Below, one piece after another: positions 5,311 through 60,380 of a DNA stretch of 64,000 bases. Positions within the stretch are counted from its first letter, which is position 1, and every line of letters begins with the position of its first letter. The notes under the pieces are model-generated. The model saw nothing but the letters and a program-made list of their open reading frames with translations, did not search any database and was not told the DNA's origin. The position numbers and the translations under genes are program-made. The stretch is from Verrucomicrobiota bacterium (lineage in GTDB: Bacteria > Verrucomicrobiota > Verrucomicrobiia > Opitutales > UBA953). The stretch covers positions 1 to 64,000 of the forward strand of contig VHCL01000006.1 in assembly GCA_016871725.1 (NCBI GenBank), given 5' to 3'.

Positions 5311-7842
5311 TCAGCGCCATTCGTGCTTGGGGTAACGACCGCGGAGCTCCTTCTTCACGCCCTCGTAGGAGCCCTTCCAGAAGGCGTCGAGGTCGGTCGT
5401 GCGCTGCTGGGTGCGACGGGCCGGCGACTGGATGCAGACCACGAGCGGGACCTTGCCGAGGCAGACGCGCAGCTTGCTGCCGGGGAAATCATAGAGCTCC
5501 TGCACGGTGGCCTCGACCTCGGCCTGGCCGTCGTCGGTGTATTCGATGCGGGCGGGATGCTTCTTGCGCGGCAGCACGATCTTCTCGGGACAATAGGACT
5601 CGAGGGCCATGGCCTGCTCATGGGAGAGCCAGCCGCGGACGACGCCGAAGACCGGACGCTCGCGGATGTCGCGGTAAGCGACCGCGCCGGCGCAGACTTC
5701 CTCGATGACCATGCGGCGCGCCGCGTCGTCGAACGGCGGGATGCCGAGCTCCGGGCAATGCTTCGCGAGGAAATTGACGCGGCGGATCCAGGCGTCGACG
5801 GGCGCGTCCCACTTCTCCAGCTCGAGCCGGCCGGCGGCGACCTCTTCCGCGAGCAGGCGGCTGGCGGCGTCGGACGGGGCGTCATCGCGCTCCTTGGCCT
5901 CGAGGACGAGGTCACGGAAGCGACGCTCGACGCGCGTGACGACGCGACGCTGCGAGGCGTCGTAACGGACCTGATGGGCAGTGGAGAATTCGTCCGGGAA
6001 AAGTTCCTGCAGCCAGGACTCCTCGACGGCGGTCGCCAAGGAGAGGTAAGTCGTCACGCCGCCGCGGGCCTGGATCTCGTCGACCTCGGCCGCGACCAGG
6101 AGCTTCGCGTTGCGGATGGAGGACTCGCGGCGCAGTTCGCCGGTGCGCCCGTGCACCAAGGCGCAACGCAAGGTGCCGGCGTCGAGCCGGACGGCGAGGC
6201 GGTCCGAGAAGCCGAGGAGCAGGCATCGCCGGACGGCGGCGGGATCGGCCACCCGGTCGCTGACGGGCAGCCCCTGCCCTTCGGCGAGGCGGAGGAACTG
6301 GCGGGCGGCCTGGTCGGCCTGGCGGGCGGCCTGGCCGTGCACGCCGAAGCGATCGCAAGCGTCCGCATCGAACTTCATCTCGACCGCGCGCTGCAGGAGC
6401 GCCAGCCGCGGAAAGAAGTCGGAGCCGTCTTCCTGTTCGACGGAGTCGCGGGCGTTCTCGGTGCGGTCATCGACCTTGCGGAAAAGGATGTCGCGGCCCT
6501 GGGCGAGGCCGGCGATCCGGCACACTTCGTAGACGCAATCGAGGTCGCCGGCCGCGAGGAGCATGCGCGCGTAACGCGGGTGCGCCGGGAAGACGGACAT
6601 CCGTCGGCCGAGATGCGTGAGCTTGCCTTGGGCGTCGACGGCGCCGAGGTCGGCGAGGACGGTCAACGCGCGTTGCAACGCCTTGTCGTCGGGCTTCTCG
6701 TACCAAGGGAAGGCGGCGGCCTCGCCCCAGCCGGACGAGAGCAGCAGAAGGATCGTCTCCGAAAGGTCGACGCGCTTGATCTCGGGCACCTCGCGGAGCG
6801 GCCGGGCCTCGTGGTCGGTCTGCGACCAGAGGCGGATGCAACGGCCCGGACCGGTGCGGCCCGCGCGGCCGGCGCGCTGTTCGGCGGAAGCCTGCGAGAC
6901 CGGCTCGACGAGGAGGGTGTCGATGCCGCGATGCGGATCGAAGCGCGCGATGCGGGCGAGGCCGGCGTCGACCACGGCGCGGACGCCCGGGATGGTCAGC
7001 GAGGTCTCGGCGACGTTGGTCGCGACGATCACCTTGCGTCCGGGGCTTGGCTTGACCGCGCGGTCCTGATCTTCCGGCGGCAGTTCGCCGTAGAGCGGCA
7101 GGATGTCGACGCCCCCGGATTCCGGCAGATTACGCACCGCGCCGATGGTCCGCATGATCTCATACGATCCTGGCATGAAGACGAGAATGTCGCCTTCGCT
7201 TTCCTCGCGCAGCACGCGACGGACCTGTTCCGCGGCGGCGTCCCAGACCGGACGGGTGGAGTTACGCGGGAGATGCGTATACTCGACCTGCACCGGATAG
7301 GCGCGGCCGTCGGCGGCCAAGGTCTCGGCGGAGCCAAGCCATTTCGCGACGCCCTCGGTGTCGAGGGTCGCCGACATCGCCATGATGAGCAGGTCGGGGC
7401 GATGCGTCTCCTGGAGCCGGCGAGCGAGCGCGAGGGCCACGTCGGAATGCAGGTTGCGTTCGTGGAACTCGTCGAACACCACCGCGCCGACGCCCTTGAG
7501 CTCGGGATCCGCGGCCATCTGCCGGAGCAGCAAGGCCTCGGTCACGAACTTGATGCGGGTCTGGGCGGATTCCACGCGCTCGAAGCGGATCTGGTAGCCC
7601 ACCTCGCCGCCGAGCCGGACCCCGCGCTCCTGGGCGATGCGCGCGGCGAGCAGGCGGGCCGCGATGCGGCGCGGCTGCAGGACGACGATCTGCCCTTGGA
7701 CGAGGTTCAGGTCCAGGAGCATCTGGGGGATGCGGGTGGACTTGCCCGAGCCCGTGGGCGCGCGGAGCACCAGCCGGCGCACGCGGCCGCAGGCGGCGAC
7801 CAGGCCGTCCTGCAAGGCGTCGATGGGCAAAGGCTGCTTCAT
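5311..7842 (-). CDS. hrpB: ATP-dependent RNA helicase HrpB
   Basis: 843-residue DExH-box helicase, the length typical for HrpB. Motifs in order: Walker A APTGSGKST near residues 28-36, the DEFHER box for ATP hydrolysis, SATLD (motif III), VATNVAETSLTIPG (motif V) and QRAGRAGRTGPG (motif VI), then the HrpB-specific C-terminal half ending GRYPKHEW. The enzyme unwinds RNA or RNP in an NTP-dependent way; its bacterial role is not well defined. The start ATG overlaps the stop of the phosphoesterase gene upstream (ATGA), implying translational coupling in a dnaX-phosphoesterase-hrpB-exonuclease run. Confidence 0.93.
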   Translation of the reverse strand: MKQPLPIDALQDGLVAACGRVRRLVLRAPTGSGKSTRIPQMLLDLNLVQGQIVVLQPRRIAARLLAARIAQERGVRLGGEVGYQIRFERVESAQTRIKFVTEALLLRQMAADPELKGVGAVVFDEFHERNLHSDVALALARRLQETHRPDLLIMAMSATLDTEGVAKWLGSAETLAADGRAYPVQVEYTHLPRNSTRPVWDAAAEQVRRVLREESEGDILVFMPGSYEIMRTIGAVRNLPESGGVDILPLYGELPPEDQDRAVKPSPGRKVIVATNVAETSLTIPGVRAVVDAGLARIARFDPHRGIDTLLVEPVSQASAEQRAGRAGRTGPGRCIRLWSQTDHEARPLREVPEIKRVDLSETILLLLSSGWGEAAAFPWYEKPDDKALQRALTVLADLGAVDAQGKLTHLGRRMSVFPAHPRYARMLLAAGDLDCVYEVCRIAGLAQGRDILFRKVDDRTENARDSVEQEDGSDFFPRLALLQRAVEMKFDADACDRFGVHGQAARQADQAARQFLRLAEGQGLPVSDRVADPAAVRRCLLLGFSDRLAVRLDAGTLRCALVHGRTGELRRESSIRNAKLLVAAEVDEIQARGGVTTYLSLATAVEESWLQELFPDEFSTAHQVRYDASQRRVVTRVERRFRDLVLEAKERDDAPSDAASRLLAEEVAAGRLELEKWDAPVDAWIRRVNFLAKHCPELGIPPFDDAARRMVIEEVCAGAVAYRDIRERPVFGVVRGWLSHEQAMALESYCPEKIVLPRKKHPARIEYTDDGQAEVEATVQELYDFPGSKLRVCLGKVPLVVCIQSPARRTQQRTTDLDAFWKGSYEGVKKELRGRYPKHEWR

Positions 7843-49006: not shown

Positions 49007-49037
49007 CCTTTGCCACCCGACGGGAAAGGGTTTGGTT

Positions 49038-49042
49038 GGAGG
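49038..49042 (+). promoter_or_regulatory. Shine-Dalgarno sequence of the DUF1080 gene
   Basis: GGAGG with an eight-base spacer to the ATG at 49051. It decides this start over the in-frame TTG at 49036, which would put the site inside the gene. Confidence 0.7.
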
Positions 49043-49050
49043 CTCACCCC

Positions 49051-49698
49051 ATGAGCACCTCCTCCCCCCTCCGTACCACGCTGCTGGCCACGGCCGCGCT
49101 CTTCCTGAGCTCGTACGCCGCGTTCGCCGGCGATACGATCCAGCTCTTCGACGGCAAGTCCCTCGCCGGCTGGAAGGCTTCCAAGAACTCCCCCGAAGGC
49201 ACCTACAAGATCGAGGACGGCGTCCTCCAGATCCGCGGCGGCCAAGGCCACCTCTTCTACGTCGGCACCGACGGCAAGGCCGACTTCACGAACTTCGACT
49301 TCAAGGCGAAGGTGAAGACCTACCCGGGCGCCAACTCGGGCCTCTACTTCCACACGGCCTACGAGGACAAGGGCTGGCCCTCCCAGGGCTACGAATGCCA
49401 GGTCAACGGCAGCCACAAGGACATCAAGCGCACCGGCGGCCTCTACGCCGTCCGCGACGTCCTCAACACGCCCGCCGCGCCGGACAACGAGTGGTTCGAC
49501 TACCGCATCCGCGTCGAGGGCAAGCGCATCCAGATCTGGATCAACGGCAAGCAGACCGTCGACTTCACCCAGCCCGAAGACTGGACCCCGCCCAAGGGCA
49601 TGCCCGGCCGCAAGCTCGGCCACGGCACCTTCGCCATCCAGGCCCACGACCCGGGCTGCAAGGTCGACTACAAGGACCTCGTCGTCGAACGCCTCTGA
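49051..49698 (+). CDS. Exported DUF1080 (3-keto-disaccharide hydrolase-type) protein
   Basis: 215 residues with a signal peptide (TTLLATAALFLSSYAAFAG). The DUF1080 jelly-roll domain is clear: TIQLFDGKSLAGWKASKN, LQIRGGQGHLFYVG, FDFKAKVKTYPGANSGLYFH, YECQVNGSHKD and GTFAIQAHDPGCKVDYKDLV. Some family members hydrolyse 3-keto-glycosides; most, including this one, are uncharacterised. The fold also suits carbohydrate binding. Paralogues are abundant in Planctomycetota and Verrucomicrobiota. It follows the response regulator by 44 bp and ends before a bidirectional terminator. Confidence 0.85.
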   Translation: MSTSSPLRTTLLATAALFLSSYAAFAGDTIQLFDGKSLAGWKASKNSPEGTYKIEDGVLQIRGGQGHLFYVGTDGKADFTNFDFKAKVKTYPGANSGLYFHTAYEDKGWPSQGYECQVNGSHKDIKRTGGLYAVRDVLNTPAAPDNEWFDYRIRVEGKRIQIWINGKQTVDFTQPEDWTPPKGMPGRKLGHGTFAIQAHDPGCKVDYKDLVVERL

Positions 49699-53929: not shown

Positions 53930-55411
53930 TCAGTTCTTCGGGATGCGGTTCAGCGTGTAATAGGCGTCCGCGTGATCGAGCGGCTCGCCCGCCGCCGAAC
54001 GGACTCCGTCCGCATGCAGCTCGTGGATGTGAAGCTCGCGGCGTCCGTCGACCTTGAGCCGCACGCTGAGTCCGTCGGCGGCGACCCGGGCGCCGGTGAC
54101 CGGGTTCGGGGCGGCCTGGATCTCGTCGCTGCCGTAGGCGCCCGAATAGAAGAGCGTGTAGTTCGTCATCCGGTAGGAGGCGACGTCCCCGGCCCGGGCG
54201 ACGTCGACGGGCTTGGTGAAGGTGAGCTCGAAGCCGTCGGGCCGGGCCTTCATCTCCTTGATGGCGAAAGGCCGGACGCCGTTGTAGCGCAGGCGCTGCA
54301 GTCCGTAGGCCTTGGTGCCGAGCGAGGACCAGCCGCGGCTGGTCATGCCGACCATGAGCGAGCCGTCCGGCGCGAAGCTGAGGCGCACGATGCCGGAGGC
54401 GAAACCGCCGACGAACGGGAAGCAGGCGCCCTGGTACTCGCCGTCGACCTGCTCCAGGAAGACGCGGCTGATCTTGGCGTCGGTGAACTCGGCGACGAAC
54501 ATCTGGCCGTCGAAGGGACCGAACCTGCCGCCGGCATCGCACGTGACGAGGTCGGTGCCGCTCCGGCCGACCTTGTTGTAAGGCATCCAGACCGCGGGCG
54601 GACGCATCTCGGGCAAGGCCTTCACGGCCTCGGGATACGGACGCTTCTCGGGGATCTTGGCGGAGAGCTTCAGCGGCGACTCGGGACGATTCTCGGAAGC
54701 GATGCCCTCCGGATTCAGGAAGAACGCGCCCTTGCGGAGATGGTAGATCGGGGTGGTCGGGATCCAGGTGCCCTGCTGGTCGACGCAGAACATGTCGCCG
54801 GCGAGGTTCGTGCCGAGGCCGCACGGCGAACGCATGCCGGCCGCCATGGGTACGAACTTGCCGTCCTTGTCGAGGACGCCGCCCCAGCCGCGCCACGGCG
54901 CCTTGTTGTCCGAGTGGTCGCCCATGTCGAGGTTGAGCGTAATCCAGAGCCGGCCCTGGCCGTCGCGCTTGGGTCCGTAGGCGTAGCCATGGTAGGCGCC
55001 GGAGACGTTCCAGCCCGCGCCGGCGGTGAGATACTCGTCGGCGACGCCGTCGCCGTTCGTGTCACGCAGACGCGTGGTCTCGGTCCGCTGGGTCACGAGC
55101 AAGTCCTGGCCGTCGCGCAGCAGGCCGAGGGGTTCGTGCAGGCCCGAGGCGAAGAGCCGGTAGGTCACCTTGTCGGGCTTGGGGTCGAGCACGCCGCCGA
55201 GGAGCCAGACCTCGCCCTTGCGGATCGTCAGCGCGAGCTTGCCGTCGGCGGTCCAGTCCATGCCGCTGACCTCGAGCGCGAGGCCGTCGCCGGGCTTCCA
55301 GTCCTTGGCGCGGGTGTCCGCCGCGGTGCTCGCGGTCAGGATGTCGGCGATCTCATAGGACGCCGCGGAAAGCGAGGCGGCGGCGAAAAGTGCGAAGGAC
55401 GCGGCTTTCAT
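53930..55411 (-). CDS. Exported beta-propeller protein, PQQ-sugar-dehydrogenase-like
   Basis: 493 residues with a signal peptide (MKAASFALFAAASLSAASYE). The body has propeller-blade repeats such as LRDTNGDGVADEYLTAG, WNVSGAYHGYAYGPKRDGQG, AAGMRSPCGLGTNLAGDMFC and GFASGIVRLSFAPDGSLMVG. It resembles the exported sugar/sorbosone dehydrogenase-like propellers common in Planctomycetota and Verrucomicrobiota. No haem CxxCH is in this protein. It is last in a four-gene operon, its start overlapping the stop of the cytochrome gene (ATGA), which suggests that the cytochrome could take its electrons. PQQ binding is not proven by the motifs I can see. Confidence 0.7.
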   Translation of the reverse strand: MKAASFALFAAASLSAASYEIADILTASTAADTRAKDWKPGDGLALEVSGMDWTADGKLALTIRKGEVWLLGGVLDPKPDKVTYRLFASGLHEPLGLLRDGQDLLVTQRTETTRLRDTNGDGVADEYLTAGAGWNVSGAYHGYAYGPKRDGQGRLWITLNLDMGDHSDNKAPWRGWGGVLDKDGKFVPMAAGMRSPCGLGTNLAGDMFCVDQQGTWIPTTPIYHLRKGAFFLNPEGIASENRPESPLKLSAKIPEKRPYPEAVKALPEMRPPAVWMPYNKVGRSGTDLVTCDAGGRFGPFDGQMFVAEFTDAKISRVFLEQVDGEYQGACFPFVGGFASGIVRLSFAPDGSLMVGMTSRGWSSLGTKAYGLQRLRYNGVRPFAIKEMKARPDGFELTFTKPVDVARAGDVASYRMTNYTLFYSGAYGSDEIQAAPNPVTGARVAADGLSVRLKVDGRRELHIHELHADGVRSAAGEPLDHADAYYTLNRIPKN

Positions 55412-57519
55412 TTCCAGAGGTAGGTGAAGACGCGCCGGCCTTCCGGCGCACCGGAGAGCTCGGTCCGCTCAAGTCCGGCGGGGTGATGGATCGTCGGGAC
55501 GAAGTCAGGCGTGGGCGCCCAAGTGACCGTGCGGCGCAGGCCGTTCTCGACGCCTTCGTAGGTCTCGTCGACCTTCACGCCGGCCTGCTCGTTGAGGAAC
55601 GTGGGGTTGCCCTTGGCGTCGAGCCGGTAGCCGAGGAAGCGGCCGGCGGGCTTGGGCCAGGCGACGACCTGCTCGCCGATGGGCTTCTCGAACGTCGGGA
55701 AGCGGGAGAACCACGTCAGATAGGCGTCGAAGAAGCGTCCCTTCCAGGCGAGCCCCGGGCCGCCTTTGTCGCCGTCGTAAGCCAGGTGCACGCCGGTCGG
55801 GAACCCGACCAGGATCGCGCGCACGCCCACGCCGTCGAGGAACGCGCGCTGCACGACCGGCCGGTCCTTGGGCACGATCTCGAATTCGCCATTGCGGTTC
55901 TGCGGGAAGCCTTCGGGTTCGCCGTTGGCGCTCTCGGCGAACTTGTAGATCGCGGCGATCTGCTTGTCGGTGTCGCCGCCGAGAATGGTCGGGTTGAAGG
56001 ATTTTCCGGCCGGCCAGAACGACGGCATCAGCGTGCCCGGACGATAGCCGGCGGGGTTGATGAGGTATTCCTTGAGCCAGCCCTCCTGCAGGCGGGCGGC
56101 GATATTGCTGATGTCGGGACCTTGGACGCCCAAGGACGGTCGGTCGCCCCAGCGATGGCAGGTGATGCAACCCGCCCCGCCCTGCGTGCCCAGCAGCTTG
56201 CGGCCGGCAGTGTCATCGCCGCCTGCGAATTTCAAAGGAGCCCGCGCGTCGGCCACGCCAAGGAGCTTGGCGAGGTCGGCGACGGCCGGGCCGTAATGCG
56301 GCATCTTGGTCTTCAGGTAAGGCCGGATGCGGTAGGGTTCGGCGCCGTAGTGCGTCGTGAAGAGGTCGGCGCCCTTGGCCGCCGGCCGCTCCGTGAGCAC
56401 GTTGGCGAGCCATTCCGGGCGGAGCTTACCGCCGACGCCGGTGAGAGGCGGCGGATAACGTCCGGTGTCGCCGAGGTTATGATCGCCCTGGAAATAAGCC
56501 TTCCGCGCGGCGTCCGGCCCGCCCTGGCCGTCGCGCTCATGGCAGGCGACGCAGTTGAGCGCCTGCAAGGTGAGGTCGGCCGCGAGCTTGGGAGAGACGG
56601 CGGCGTCCTTCTTCGCGAGAAAGAGCTTCAAGGAAGCGCGTTGGGCCTCGGAAAGCGCGTAGCGCGGTCCCTTGGCGTGACCGGCGTCCAGGCAGCCGCC
56701 CTTGCTCCCGACGAGGGCCACCGGCTGGGCCGCGGCGTCCTTCGGCAGGTCATGGCAGGCGGCGCACCGGGCGGCGACGACCGCCTTGCGGCCGGCGACC
56801 GCGAGATCCTTGTCGGCGACGACGGACACGACGGGCACGTCCGTGCGGCCGTCACTGCCTTGGAATTCGAGCAGGTAGCCGGCGATATCGATGGCGTCCT
56901 GCTTCACCATCGTGGTCTTCGGCATGCGTCCGTCGGTCCGCACCTTGAGCGGGTCGACGATGAAGGTCGCGAGGCTGTCGAGGCCGTACTTCGCCTTCAG
57001 GTCGCCGAACGCGACGCTGCGATGGGTGAACTCGGAGGCCTTGGGTAGCCCATCGGGCGGGACGAACCCTTCGCCTGGCGCGTGGCAGGCGACGCAACCG
57101 AGCGTATGGAAGAGTTCGCCGCCGCGGGCGCCGTTGACGTGCAGGATCTTCGCCGGAGCCTTGGGGGCGGCATTCGGCTTCAACGAGGCGAGATAGTGCT
57201 CGATCGCGACGAGGGTCCGTGCCTCGGCGTTCGCGAGGACCTGCGGCATGACGGCGCCGGGATGCGCGGACGCCGGGTCGGCGATGAACTTGCGCAGCCA
57301 TTCGGAACGGACGCGCTGGGTCACGGTCGCGAGCGCCGGGCCGCGCATCGCCGGCAGGCCGGTCGTGCCGCCGTGGCAGTTGACGCAACCGAGCTCGTTA
57401 TAGAGGAGACGCCCGCCTTCGGCCGTCGGCGTCGAGGCATGGAAGCGCTCGAAACCCGTGACGAGCGGTTCGGCTCCCAGCGCGGCCGCGGCAAGGAGGA
57501 TGGCGGCCCGGAGGATCAT
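55408..57519 (-). CDS. Exported five-haem c-type cytochrome
   Basis: 703 residues with a signal peptide (MILRAAILLAAAALGAEPLV). Five haem-binding sites are seen: CVNCH 45-49, CVACH 142-146, CAACH 252-256, CVACH 323-327 and CITCH 451-455. Met-containing segments after them could be axial ligands (GAVMPQVL, GRMPKTTM, KTKMPHYG, GTLMPSF). The last 230 residues carry no haem and are beta-rich. The ATG at 57519 overlaps the stop of the epimerase gene; the open frame upstream of it is a shadow. It is probably a periplasmic electron carrier for the propeller protein. Confidence 0.85.
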   Translation of the reverse strand: MILRAAILLAAAALGAEPLVTGFERFHASTPTAEGGRLLYNELGCVNCHGGTTGLPAMRGPALATVTQRVRSEWLRKFIADPASAHPGAVMPQVLANAEARTLVAIEHYLASLKPNAAPKAPAKILHVNGARGGELFHTLGCVACHAPGEGFVPPDGLPKASEFTHRSVAFGDLKAKYGLDSLATFIVDPLKVRTDGRMPKTTMVKQDAIDIAGYLLEFQGSDGRTDVPVVSVVADKDLAVAGRKAVVAARCAACHDLPKDAAAQPVALVGSKGGCLDAGHAKGPRYALSEAQRASLKLFLAKKDAAVSPKLAADLTLQALNCVACHERDGQGGPDAARKAYFQGDHNLGDTGRYPPPLTGVGGKLRPEWLANVLTERPAAKGADLFTTHYGAEPYRIRPYLKTKMPHYGPAVADLAKLLGVADARAPLKFAGGDDTAGRKLLGTQGGAGCITCHRWGDRPSLGVQGPDISNIAARLQEGWLKEYLINPAGYRPGTLMPSFWPAGKSFNPTILGGDTDKQIAAIYKFAESANGEPEGFPQNRNGEFEIVPKDRPVVQRAFLDGVGVRAILVGFPTGVHLAYDGDKGGPGLAWKGRFFDAYLTWFSRFPTFEKPIGEQVVAWPKPAGRFLGYRLDAKGNPTFLNEQAGVKVDETYEGVENGLRRTVTWAPTPDFVPTIHHPAGLERTELSGAPEGRRVFTYLWK

Positions 57520-58442
57520 GCCGTCTCGCGGACGCACTTCTCGACGTAGGCGCGCGACTCGTTGATGAGCGCGGTGACTTCGGCGGTGGTCGGCAGCACG
57601 GGGATGCCGCGGGGCGTGGGGTGCATGAACAGTTCCACCTGCCCGTCGAAACGGATGTCCCGCAGGGCCTTCACGATCGGGCGGTAGTCGAGCTTGCCGC
57701 GTCCGGGCATCTGGCGGAGCTCCTCCTCCTTCGAGGCCTTCTTGAAGATGCCCTCGGAGTGCTCCTGGAAATACATGAACGGCAGGTTCTTCGCGCCGAG
57801 GTCGCGCAGGAGCGCGGGGATCTGGTCGGCCCACTCGTGCAGATGGTGCGGGGCGAAGGCCACGCCGAGCGCGGGGGACTTGTTCAGCTCGGCGAAGGCG
57901 CGGAGGGAGTCGGGATGATGCAGCGCCTGGTTCGAGTGGTTCTCGATCGCGATGCGCACGCCCAGCTCCTCGGCCTTGGCCGCGTGCGGCTTCATGTCCT
58001 CGAGGAACTTGGCGATGGCGGCCTTGGCCGCCGCGCCCGCAGGGTTCTTCGGTCCGGTGCTGCCGCAGACGACCGTCGTGCCGCCGTGCTGCTTCACCCA
58101 GGCCATCTCGTCCTGCAGTTTGAACGGTCCCAGGGGGTAGCGCGTGCTCACGCCGACCTTGACGCCATGCTTCTTCAGGAGCGCCGCGAAGGCCACGTCG
58201 CCGAGCGCGGCGGCCTGCTCGCGCTGGTCGCCGTGCACCTTGCACCAGAGGTCGATCGCTTCGCTGCCGGTCTTGGCGACCTCGGGCAGCACTTCGGCCA
58301 GCGGGGCGTAGCCGTACATCGCGGAGGACAGCACGTAGCGGAGGCGGAAAGGCTCCGCGGCCTGGGCCCGCAGGGCGGGCGCGGCGGCGACCGCGGCGGC
58401 GGCGAGGCCGGCGGAACGGAGGAAGTCGCGTCGGGAAAGCAT
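57516..58442 (-). CDS. Tat-exported sugar phosphate isomerase/epimerase-like protein
   Basis: 308 residues with a twin-arginine signal (SRRDFLRSAGLAAAAVAAAP). The rest is a xylose-isomerase-like TIM barrel: VAKTGSEAIDLWCKVHGDQ, LGVRIAIENHSNQALHHPDS, SPALGVAFAPHHLHEWADQI and DGQVELFMHPTPRGIPVLP. Metal-ligand candidates are the E and H in IAIENH and the D/H positions of the barrel. Such proteins epimerise or isomerise sugars; export makes a phosphorylated substrate unlikely. It lies four bases after the DJ-1 gene and overlaps the cytochrome gene. Confidence 0.8.
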   Translation of the reverse strand: MLSRRDFLRSAGLAAAAVAAAPALRAQAAEPFRLRYVLSSAMYGYAPLAEVLPEVAKTGSEAIDLWCKVHGDQREQAAALGDVAFAALLKKHGVKVGVSTRYPLGPFKLQDEMAWVKQHGGTTVVCGSTGPKNPAGAAAKAAIAKFLEDMKPHAAKAEELGVRIAIENHSNQALHHPDSLRAFAELNKSPALGVAFAPHHLHEWADQIPALLRDLGAKNLPFMYFQEHSEGIFKKASKEEELRQMPGRGKLDYRPIVKALRDIRFDGQVELFMHPTPRGIPVLPTTAEVTALINESRAYVEKCVRETA

Positions 58443-58446
58443 CGGC

Positions 58447-59133
58447 TTACTTCTTGGCGACCTCGGCCTCGAGCATCTTGATCCACGGGCCGACGAAGGC
58501 GCCGTTGTCGTGGAAGGTGCGGCCGCTGACCATGTGGCGGTCGATGACGACCGGGGCGTTGACGAAGATGCCGCCGCAGACCTCGAGGTCGAACTTGCAC
58601 TTCGGCACGGTGGCCATGCGCAGGCCCTTCACGATGCCGGCGCGGGCGGGAATCTCGACGCCGTGGCAGACGCTCATCATCGGCTTGCCGTGCTCCCAGA
58701 ACCAGCGCGTGGCGGCCAGCAGGGCCTCGTCCTCGCGGATGTACTCCGGGGCGCGGCCGCCGCTGAAGAAGATGCCGACGTATTCCTCGGGCTTGATGTC
58801 CTTGAAGGCGATGTCGGAGTTGATCGTGTAGCCCTCCCACTCCTTGGTGATCGTCCAGCCCGGCTTAACCTCGTGCAGCACGGTCTGGTAGACGCGCTTC
58901 TCGGGCGTCGCGAAGACCGGCTGGAAACCGGCCTCCTGGAGGCGGTACACCGGGTACATCGTGTCGAGCAGTTCGGTGGCGTCGCCGATGACGATCAGCA
59001 CCTTGGGCTTCTTGGCGTTCTCGGGCTTGTCGGCGCCGGACGAGATCGAAGCCTGGTTCTTGTTGTCGACGAGGGCGGCGGAGACGGACGCGCACAGGCC
59101 GAGGAGGCCGACGGTGAGGAGGCGGAGTTTCAT
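58447..59133 (-). CDS. Exported DJ-1/PfpI-family protein
   Basis: 228 residues with a signal peptide (MKLRLLTVGLLGLCASVSAA). The DJ-1/PfpI domain has VLIVIGDATELLDTMYPVYR, FFSGGRAPEYIREDEALLAA and the nucleophile elbow MMSVCHGVEIPARAG with C156. It ends WIKMLEAEV. Family members are proteases, glyoxalases, deglycases or chaperones; an exported member could repair or sense carbonyl compounds in the periplasm. It is the first gene of the four-gene operon, preceded by a -35/-10 promoter with a very short leader. Confidence 0.8.
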   Translation of the reverse strand: MKLRLLTVGLLGLCASVSAALVDNKNQASISSGADKPENAKKPKVLIVIGDATELLDTMYPVYRLQEAGFQPVFATPEKRVYQTVLHEVKPGWTITKEWEGYTINSDIAFKDIKPEEYVGIFFSGGRAPEYIREDEALLAATRWFWEHGKPMMSVCHGVEIPARAGIVKGLRMATVPKCKFDLEVCGGIFVNAPVVIDRHMVSGRTFHDNGAFVGPWIKMLEAEVAKK

Positions 59134-59145
59134 GGGGGTGCCGGG

Positions 59146-59174
59146 ACTATATCCTTTCTTGCCCGCGAAGTCAT
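59146..59174 (-). promoter_or_regulatory. Promoter of the four-gene exported operon
   Basis: On the minus strand ATGACT (59174-59169), a 17-base spacer and TATAGT (59151-59146). The predicted start of RNA is near 59139, about six bases before the ATG at 59133. It overlaps the divergent promoter, so one regulator could act on both. Confidence 0.5.
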
Positions 59175-59186
59175 TACAGGTATGAT
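59159..59186 (+). promoter_or_regulatory. Promoter of the XylR-type regulator gene
   Basis: TTGCCC (59159-59164), a 16-base spacer and TATGAT (59181-59186). The predicted RNA start is near 59193, giving a leader of about 24 bases. Overlap with the divergent promoter suggests shared control. Confidence 0.45.
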
Positions 59187-59216
59187 GCACTAAAAGTAAG
59201 GTTTTTGGTCACCGCC

Positions 59217-60380
59217 ATGCCCGCCCCCGCCCATCGCCGCGCCCCGCGGGTCGCCCTCCTCATCGAGACCACGCGCACTTACACCCGCGAGCTCCTCGCC
59301 GGCGTCCGGAGCTACGTGGCGGCGCACGGCCCCTGGTCGACCTACCTTGAGCTGCGCGCCCTGGACTCCTCGCCCCCGACCTGGCTGAAGGACTGGGACG
59401 GCGACGGCATCCTCACCCGCACCTTCAGCGCCGAGACCTCCCGGCTCGTCGCGGCCACGGGGCTCCCCGCCGTCGAGCTCCGCTCCACCCACTTCGCCGG
59501 CGGGCGGCCGTTCGTCGGCTGCGACAACGAGGACATCGGCCGGATGGTGGCGGAGCATTTCTACGAACGGGGCTTCCGGCACTTCGCGGCCTACAGCCAG
59601 CGCAACGAGCGGTTCTTCGTCGAACGCGTGGCGAAATTCAAGAAGGTCGTCCGGTCCTACGGGCACCGCTGCCTGGAGCTGCCCGAGGACCATCCCGAAC
59701 GCGTGCCCGACTGGGAACAGAGCCAGGCGCGCCTGATCCGCTGGATCGCGCAGCTGCCCAGGCCGGTGGGGATCTTCGCCTCGACCGACCAGCTCGGCGT
59801 CCGCCTGCTCGAGGCCTGCCAGACCGCGGGCGTGGCGGTGCCCGAGGAGGTCGCCGTGGTCGGGGCCGAGAACGAGGAGACGCTCTGCAGCTTCACCACC
59901 CCGCCCCTCTCCAGCGTCCGCTTCGACGGCCACGCGGTCGGCTTCGCCGCCGCGGAGCTGCTCGACCGCCTCATGCGGGGCCAGTCCGCGCGGACCAAGC
60001 CCGTCCTGCTCGCGCCGAAAGGCATCGAGGTGCGCGGCTCGTCGGGCGAGCGGGTCCTCCGCGACCGCCTCGTCGCCCGCGCGGTGGCGCTCATCCGCGA
60101 ACAGGCCGCGCGCGGACTCGACGTCAACGAGCTCGCCGCGCAGCTGGGCGCCTCGCGCAGCACGCTCGACCGGCGCATGAAGGCGGCGCTGCGACGCTCG
60201 CCGAAGGACGAGATCCTGCGCGTGCGTTTCCGCGAAGTGGAGCGGCTGCTGCGCGAGACCAACCTCACGATCGACCTCATCGCCGAGCAGACCGGCTTCA
60301 CGCACAGCCATTACCTGCAGGCGGCCTTCAAGGCGCGCACCAAGCTGACCCCGGGGAAGTTCCGCCGGACCCGGACCTGA
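59217..60380 (+). CDS. XylR-type transcriptional regulator (sugar-binding plus AraC helix-turn-helix)
   Basis: 387 residues. Residues about 10-275 are a LacI-like periplasmic-binding fold that would bind a sugar: RVALLIETTRTYTRELLAGV, GCDNEDIGRMVAEHFYERGF, PVGIFASTDQLGVRLLEACQ and VVGAENEETLCSFTTPPLSS. Residues about 285-387 are an AraC-type DNA-binding domain (LDVNELAAQLGASRSTLDRR, then LIAEQTGFTHSHYLQAAFKA). The organisation is that of Escherichia coli XylR. It is divergent from the exported four-gene operon and probably controls it in response to a carbohydrate. Confidence 0.9.
   Translation: MPAPAHRRAPRVALLIETTRTYTRELLAGVRSYVAAHGPWSTYLELRALDSSPPTWLKDWDGDGILTRTFSAETSRLVAATGLPAVELRSTHFAGGRPFVGCDNEDIGRMVAEHFYERGFRHFAAYSQRNERFFVERVAKFKKVVRSYGHRCLELPEDHPERVPDWEQSQARLIRWIAQLPRPVGIFASTDQLGVRLLEACQTAGVAVPEEVAVVGAENEETLCSFTTPPLSSVRFDGHAVGFAAAELLDRLMRGQSARTKPVLLAPKGIEVRGSSGERVLRDRLVARAVALIREQAARGLDVNELAAQLGASRSTLDRRMKAALRRSPKDEILRVRFREVERLLRETNLTIDLIAEQTGFTHSHYLQAAFKARTKLTPGKFRRTRT

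Follow-up and report, generated by a model that had tools for sequence, protein, structure and literature searches.

In the window, that is, the whole 64,000-nucleotide stretch of DNA analysed here, four adjacent genes on the reverse strand form a real conserved unit, and their conservation is far above chance. Read in the direction of transcription, they encode a DJ-1/PfpI protein of 228 aa (58447..59133; Pfam DJ-1_PfpI, 8.6e-28), a Tat-exported TIM barrel of 308 aa that we propose to be a keto-glycoside eliminase (57516..58442; AP_endonuc_2, PF01261, 3e-18), a five-haem cytochrome c of 703 aa (55408..57519; Pfam Cytochrom_C) and a propeller protein of 493 aa (53930..55411). The gaps between successive genes are +4, -4 and -4 bp, the two last being ATGA overlaps; the gene order, coordinates and 4-bp spacings given in the first-pass annotation were all correct on re-examination. 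Tentatively, we read the unit as a periplasmic keto-glycoside operon in which the propeller and the cytochrome would carry out an oxidation, the TIM protein an elimination, and the DJ-1 protein a step downstream of these. Our confidence is higher in the broader statement that this is a redox unit acting on a sugar or glycoside, and lower in each separate chemical detail of the scheme.

The tight spacing of the genes is itself conserved among relatives: the cytochrome and propeller genes overlap by 4 bp in 25 of 26 loci, the TIM and cytochrome genes do so in 14 of 18, and the DJ-1 and TIM genes are separated by 4-5 bp in 21 of 21. Used as the query of a genome collection, the propeller yielded 69 loci, from MAGs and genomes labelled Verrucomicrobiota save for a few with seemingly misassigned titles. 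The operon is also present in a named genome, that of Chthoniobacter flavus Ellin428 (L087). The cytochrome gene lay upstream of the propeller gene in all 54 loci with enough flank, whereas among the testable loci the TIM gene was present in 48 of 51, the DJ-1 gene in 40 of 50 and a divergently oriented regulator gene in 24 of 48. Since these loci had been obtained through the propeller itself, even genome samples were also examined. In a sample of 388 phylum genomes, nine carried a propeller orthologue; in eight of the nine the TIM orthologue was present too, in every case on the contig of the propeller and no more than a few kb away. Within the genus, the DJ-1 and TIM genes come and go as a pair: among 55 genomes each was found in 32 and both in 31, the two exceptions being fragments at contig ends. 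The idea of one functional unit is borne out by the linkage in these three sets of loci and genomes, and a scattering of the four genes in relatives, named beforehand as what would speak against that idea, was looked for and not encountered. Neighbouring MATE and ABC genes were considered as further members and set aside, as they are kept only in the organism's own genus. In the open-access literature we found no publication on this four-gene set.

Upstream of the DJ-1 gene and divergent from it lies an XylR-like regulator gene (59217..60380, forward strand), whose product combines a sugar-binding Peripla_BP_3 domain (PF13377) with an AraC-type HTH_18 domain (PF12833), in agreement with the divergent XylR-type regulator described at first; the XylR N-terminal domain was matched only below the cut-off. 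The regulator would sense a sugar ligand. The 83 bp separating the two genes (59134..59216) fit a shared control region. Alignment of 18 intergenic regions revealed in them a non-coding block, some 65 bp long, that hardly varies over a large part of the genus, a conservation exceeding what a promoter alone would need.

Signal peptides were judged by eye from the sequence, the Tat signal alone being backed by a model match (the twin-arginine model TIGR01409, above its cut-off in the TIM protein). In this genome all four proteins bear export signals, that of the DJ-1 protein being of the Sec type. The DJ-1 signal peptide is limited to this genus; two distant loci, L106 and L108, have a different one, and elsewhere the protein is leaderless and begins directly at its domain. 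The first-pass annotation had given a signal peptide to each of the four proteins, which holds in this genome and fails for DJ-1 in most relatives.

The AF2 model of the propeller protein (pLDDT 87) has six blades followed by a C-terminal beta domain, and Foldseek comparisons place it in the same fold as AA12 and the PQQ sugar dehydrogenases. The top matches, 3a9g (E 5.2e-13), 2ism and 1cq1, are PQQ sugar dehydrogenases at 12-16% identity, which supports the earlier proposal of a propeller that oxidises a carbohydrate; SMP30/gluconolactonase-type propellers are among the lower-ranking matches. With hmmscan, the protein gave weak matches to DUF7133 and TIGR02604, the latter at 31.2 bits against a curated cut-off of 122.2, which leaves it outside that family, and no match to PF07995; compared by sequence with the PDB, it retrieved chance or designed propellers only. 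A profile of the GSDH proteins of the phylum, however weak the single-family matches, aligned with most of the chain (E 5e-7) and set R194-S-P-C-G against the RNPQG motif. Neither H141 nor R194 varies among the orthologues.

The gene pqqC was not found in this genome or in 37 relatives by a search that detects it elsewhere in the phylum (as a positive control, five genomes of one family, f24, scored over the cut-off), and of 241 genomes of the phylum only 7 have it. With pqqC absent, the PQQ enzyme implied by the first-pass annotation is weakened. We also weighed whether the lack of pqqC disproves a quinoprotein and rejected this argument: some bacteria use external PQQ, and strong GSDH proteins occur in relatives of the same order that lack pqqC, so the absence is not decisive. 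The redox cofactor of the propeller may be external PQQ or none. In the pqqC-less order relatives with strong PF07995 GSDH proteins (L124-L143), PQQ is either scavenged or not used.

The nearest solved structures of the TIM protein belong to epimerases and IolI (IolI, 1.6e-4; TM0416, 8.8e-5). When the protein was aligned to IolI, TM0416 and tagatose epimerase, E167 of the epimerase metal site was found to be kept, and the Asp, His and Glu were replaced by A197, F225 (Leu in one) and F272, respectively. Three of the four metal ligands are thus replaced in all 18 relatives examined, which tells against the earlier description of an epimerase that isomerises its substrate; judged from these residues, the protein ought not to be classed among the canonical metal-dependent epimerases. 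In 18 orthologues the triplet E167-N168-H169 does not vary, and it aligned with the H-N-H of PDB 8bvk, a 259-residue 'xylose isomerase' (E about 0.1, one region). Because the residue numbers and the length match, we presume that this chain is AtOGE, the O-glycoside eliminase of Agrobacterium. In AtOGE, the metal is bound by His132, and His134 acts as the catalytic base (PMC10628242); in AgCGD2, which works on C-glycosides, the residues are Glu147 and His149 (PMC8563793).

The Asp, His and Glu ligands that the eliminases carry on beta6, beta7 and beta8 are absent from the TIM protein, where Ala197, Phe225 and Phe272 are found. As these three ligands of eliminases and epimerases are absent, the metal site of the TIM protein must differ or be missing; the conserved His200 and His274 may replace the missing ligands. 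E167, H169, H200 and H274 persist in more distant TIM relatives, with the exception of L115, which has a different TIM protein. The idea that the metal site had moved two residues along on each of the four strands (H169, H199, E227, H274) was considered and abandoned, as H199 becomes Tyr and E227 varies on wider sampling. Given the weak alignment with 8bvk and the unconserved other ligands, the likeness to eliminases is a lead and not a membership. At three loci (L080, L081 and L115, in the last at 5453-6412), the TIM gene is replaced in the same operon position by that of a different AP_endonuc_2 protein (25% identity). This substitute bears the canonical Asp/His/Glu, which counts against the eliminase reading.

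In the DJ-1 protein, the C156-H157 nucleophile and E54 are invariant, and its identity across families is 67-75%, above that of the cytochrome, falling to about 42-51% in the most divergent loci. Among its relatives are DJ-1d of Arabidopsis and PfpI deglycase-type proteins. The exported carbonyl scavenger of the first-pass annotation leaves unexplained this degree of identity, the invariant Cys-His-Glu and the leaderless form in most relatives; we infer that a specific catalytic step on a keto product is likelier than general detoxification. The alternative of a TIM protein acting on a free sugar as isomerase or epimerase, a PQQ propeller that oxidises the sugar, a cytochrome that accepts the electrons and an exported DJ-1 protein that clears reactive carbonyls agrees with the epimerase and IolI structures nearest to the TIM protein, with the PQQ aldose dehydrogenases matched by the propeller fold and with the deglycase-type kin of DJ-1. 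However, the replaced metal ligands, the missing pqqC and the leaderless DJ-1 of most relatives all stand against it, and we regard it as unlikely.

For the keto-glycoside reading that we prefer, the gene neighbourhoods of more distant relatives are informative. Five genomes from other lineages of the phylum carry the TIM gene (49-52% identity) without an adjoining cytochrome or propeller gene. It lies there beside a Gfo/Idh/MocA gene (L105, L107, L108 and L109) or a GMC oxidoreductase gene (L106); two of these loci, L106 and L108, also have a DJ-1 gene, and L108 has a related regulator as well. Enzymes of the Gfo/Idh/MocA and GMC families make 3-keto-glycosides (PMC8563793, PMC10646112, PMC9007349). 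As the TIM gene stands beside families of this kind, the simplest reading, by analogy, is that the cytochrome and the propeller would do the same job in the operon described here.

In its 2.37 Mb, the genome encodes 22 domains of the DUF1080 (3-keto-disaccharide hydrolase) type that score above the cut-off, a strikingly high number that suggests heavy use of keto-glycosides. One of these, in an exported protein (49036..49698, forward strand; PF06439, 1e-40), is encoded outside the operon, 4.2 kb from it, and is a conserved neighbour in the genus. In relatives, the neighbouring genes encode sulfatases, AXE1-type (acetyl-xylan-type) esterases, GH106, a TonB receptor and DUF1080, and they point to glycans. 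At one locus (L047, 4430-5923) a sulfatase gene is placed between the TIM and cytochrome genes, and further sulfatase genes occur near the operon in L081 (by Pfam) and L064 (by clustering with the L047 and L081 sulfatases); these genes hint that the substrate may be sulfated in certain lineages. A polyol, a cyclitol or a sugar acid might also be the substrate, with the TIM protein dehydrating or isomerising its keto product. IolI is a close structural relative of the TIM protein, and AP_endonuc_2 and Gfo/Idh/MocA proteins are also found in inositol-type pathways, but the sulfatases, acetyl-xylan-type esterases, GH106 and DUF1080 near the operons of relatives, as well as the sugar-binding-protein domain of the regulator, make this alternative doubtful.

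Within the keto-glycoside scheme, the cytochrome is supported as the natural electron partner of the propeller, and it may instead serve some other enzyme. Its five CxxCH motifs are invariant in 26 sequences, and its AF2 model contains a conserved C-terminal beta-rich domain (about residues 545-703) with no Pfam match and no significant fold match in the PDB. A stretch of this domain (30% identity) was found in a protein with one CxxCH, encoded just upstream of a propeller paralogue in the same genome; since the stretch adjoins a propeller paralogue, the sequence suggests that the tail domain is the part working with the propeller. At that locus (L119, contig C24, 6726-9972), the genes for the propeller paralogue (43-44%) and the one-CxxCH protein are followed by that of an apparent solute symporter. 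The redox character ascribed to the cassette in the first-pass annotation agrees well with a cytochrome next to a propeller of sugar-dehydrogenase fold.

The purified Lac161_ORF7, a TIGR02604 propeller-HEAT-cytochrome protein encoded by a soil clone of Chthoniobacter-like origin, is reported to have acted on lactose; its cosmid restored growth on lactose, and the authors labelled the protein a beta-galactosidase (PMC5342196). This reported hydrolysis by a TIGR02604 relative, the SMP30/gluconolactonase-type propellers among the lower fold matches and the lack of PQQ synthesis would suit a hydrolase- or lactonase-type propeller with an independent or regulatory cytochrome, which seems improbable to us in view of the sugar dehydrogenases heading the fold matches, the invariable adjacency of the cytochrome gene, mostly with translational overlap, the cytochrome-propeller fusions that the same report gives for other PVC relatives, and the propeller paralogues with CxxCH in the organism's own genome.

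Sequence comparison establishes the unit and its gene order, the folds and active-site residues, the export signals and the exchange of the redox module in relatives. For the keto-glycoside operon, the reaction, the position of oxidation, the electron path, the substrate and the role of the DJ-1 protein that we infer are as follows. The propeller would oxidise a hydroxyl group on a sugar or glycoside, most likely at C3 by analogy, and the five-haem cytochrome would take its electrons and deliver them to the respiratory chain. Next, the TIM barrel, exported by the Tat route, would cleave the keto-glycoside by beta-elimination, with His169 next to Glu167, and would not isomerise a free sugar. 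The DJ-1 protein would act on the reactive carbonyl product by hydration or rearrangement. That the operon represents a new class of glycoside dehydrogenase, in which a PQQ-free propeller hands its electrons to a dedicated five-haem cytochrome, takes the place of the Gfo/Idh/MocA or GMC enzyme in cleaving glycosides without hydrolysis and is joined by a TIM lyase with a rebuilt site and DJ-1 as a catalytic step, appears rather unlikely.

The operon shares with the DgpABC/PuCGE, Agrobacterium GlycDH-AtOGE and Bacteroides BT2157-type pathways the TIM fold class and the Glu/His-x-His on strand beta5. As in these non-hydrolytic 3-keto-glycoside pathways, the TIM gene lies beside an oxidoreductase gene in relatives (Gfo/Idh/MocA or GMC), and DUF1080 is abundant in the genome; unlike them, the operon has a cytochrome and a propeller instead of the oxidoreductase, unconserved ligands on beta6-beta8 and a DJ-1 protein. 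In the LacABC system of Caulobacter, LacA is a GMC flavoprotein. This lactose 3-dehydrogenase (PMC9007349), a membrane-linked enzyme, resembles the operon in periplasmic glycoside oxidation, here proposed, and in a DUF1080 keto-glycoside hydrolase, whereas in the window no GMC gene adjoins that of the TIM protein, and LacABC lacks a propeller. The propeller has in common with sGDH, Asd and the AA12 pyranose dehydrogenase its fold, a conserved His and the arginine of RNPQG, and differs from them in its low identity, in a lineage without PQQ synthesis, in the extra C-terminal domain and in the separate five-haem cytochrome. The 'planctomycete-specific' TIGR02604/PSCyt proteins of the PVC group (PMC5615132) are similar in a distant sequence match, in the phylum and in the theme of haem plus propeller; unlike those proteins, the propeller scores well below the family cut-off and the genes are split.

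He et al. found planctomycete-specific cytochrome genes to be abundant in freshwater Verrucomicrobia and stated that the functions of the PSCyt genes were unknown (PMC5615132). Cytochrome and propeller proteins of this sort are abundant in planctomycetes and verrucomicrobia, mostly without a known function (PMC5615132), and the operon described here is a clean case among them: its partners are encoded separately, their order is fixed and their size permits expression. Should the module prove to be a glycoside dehydrogenase, freshwater Verrucomicrobiota would respire part of their glycans through oxidised, non-hydrolytic cleavage.
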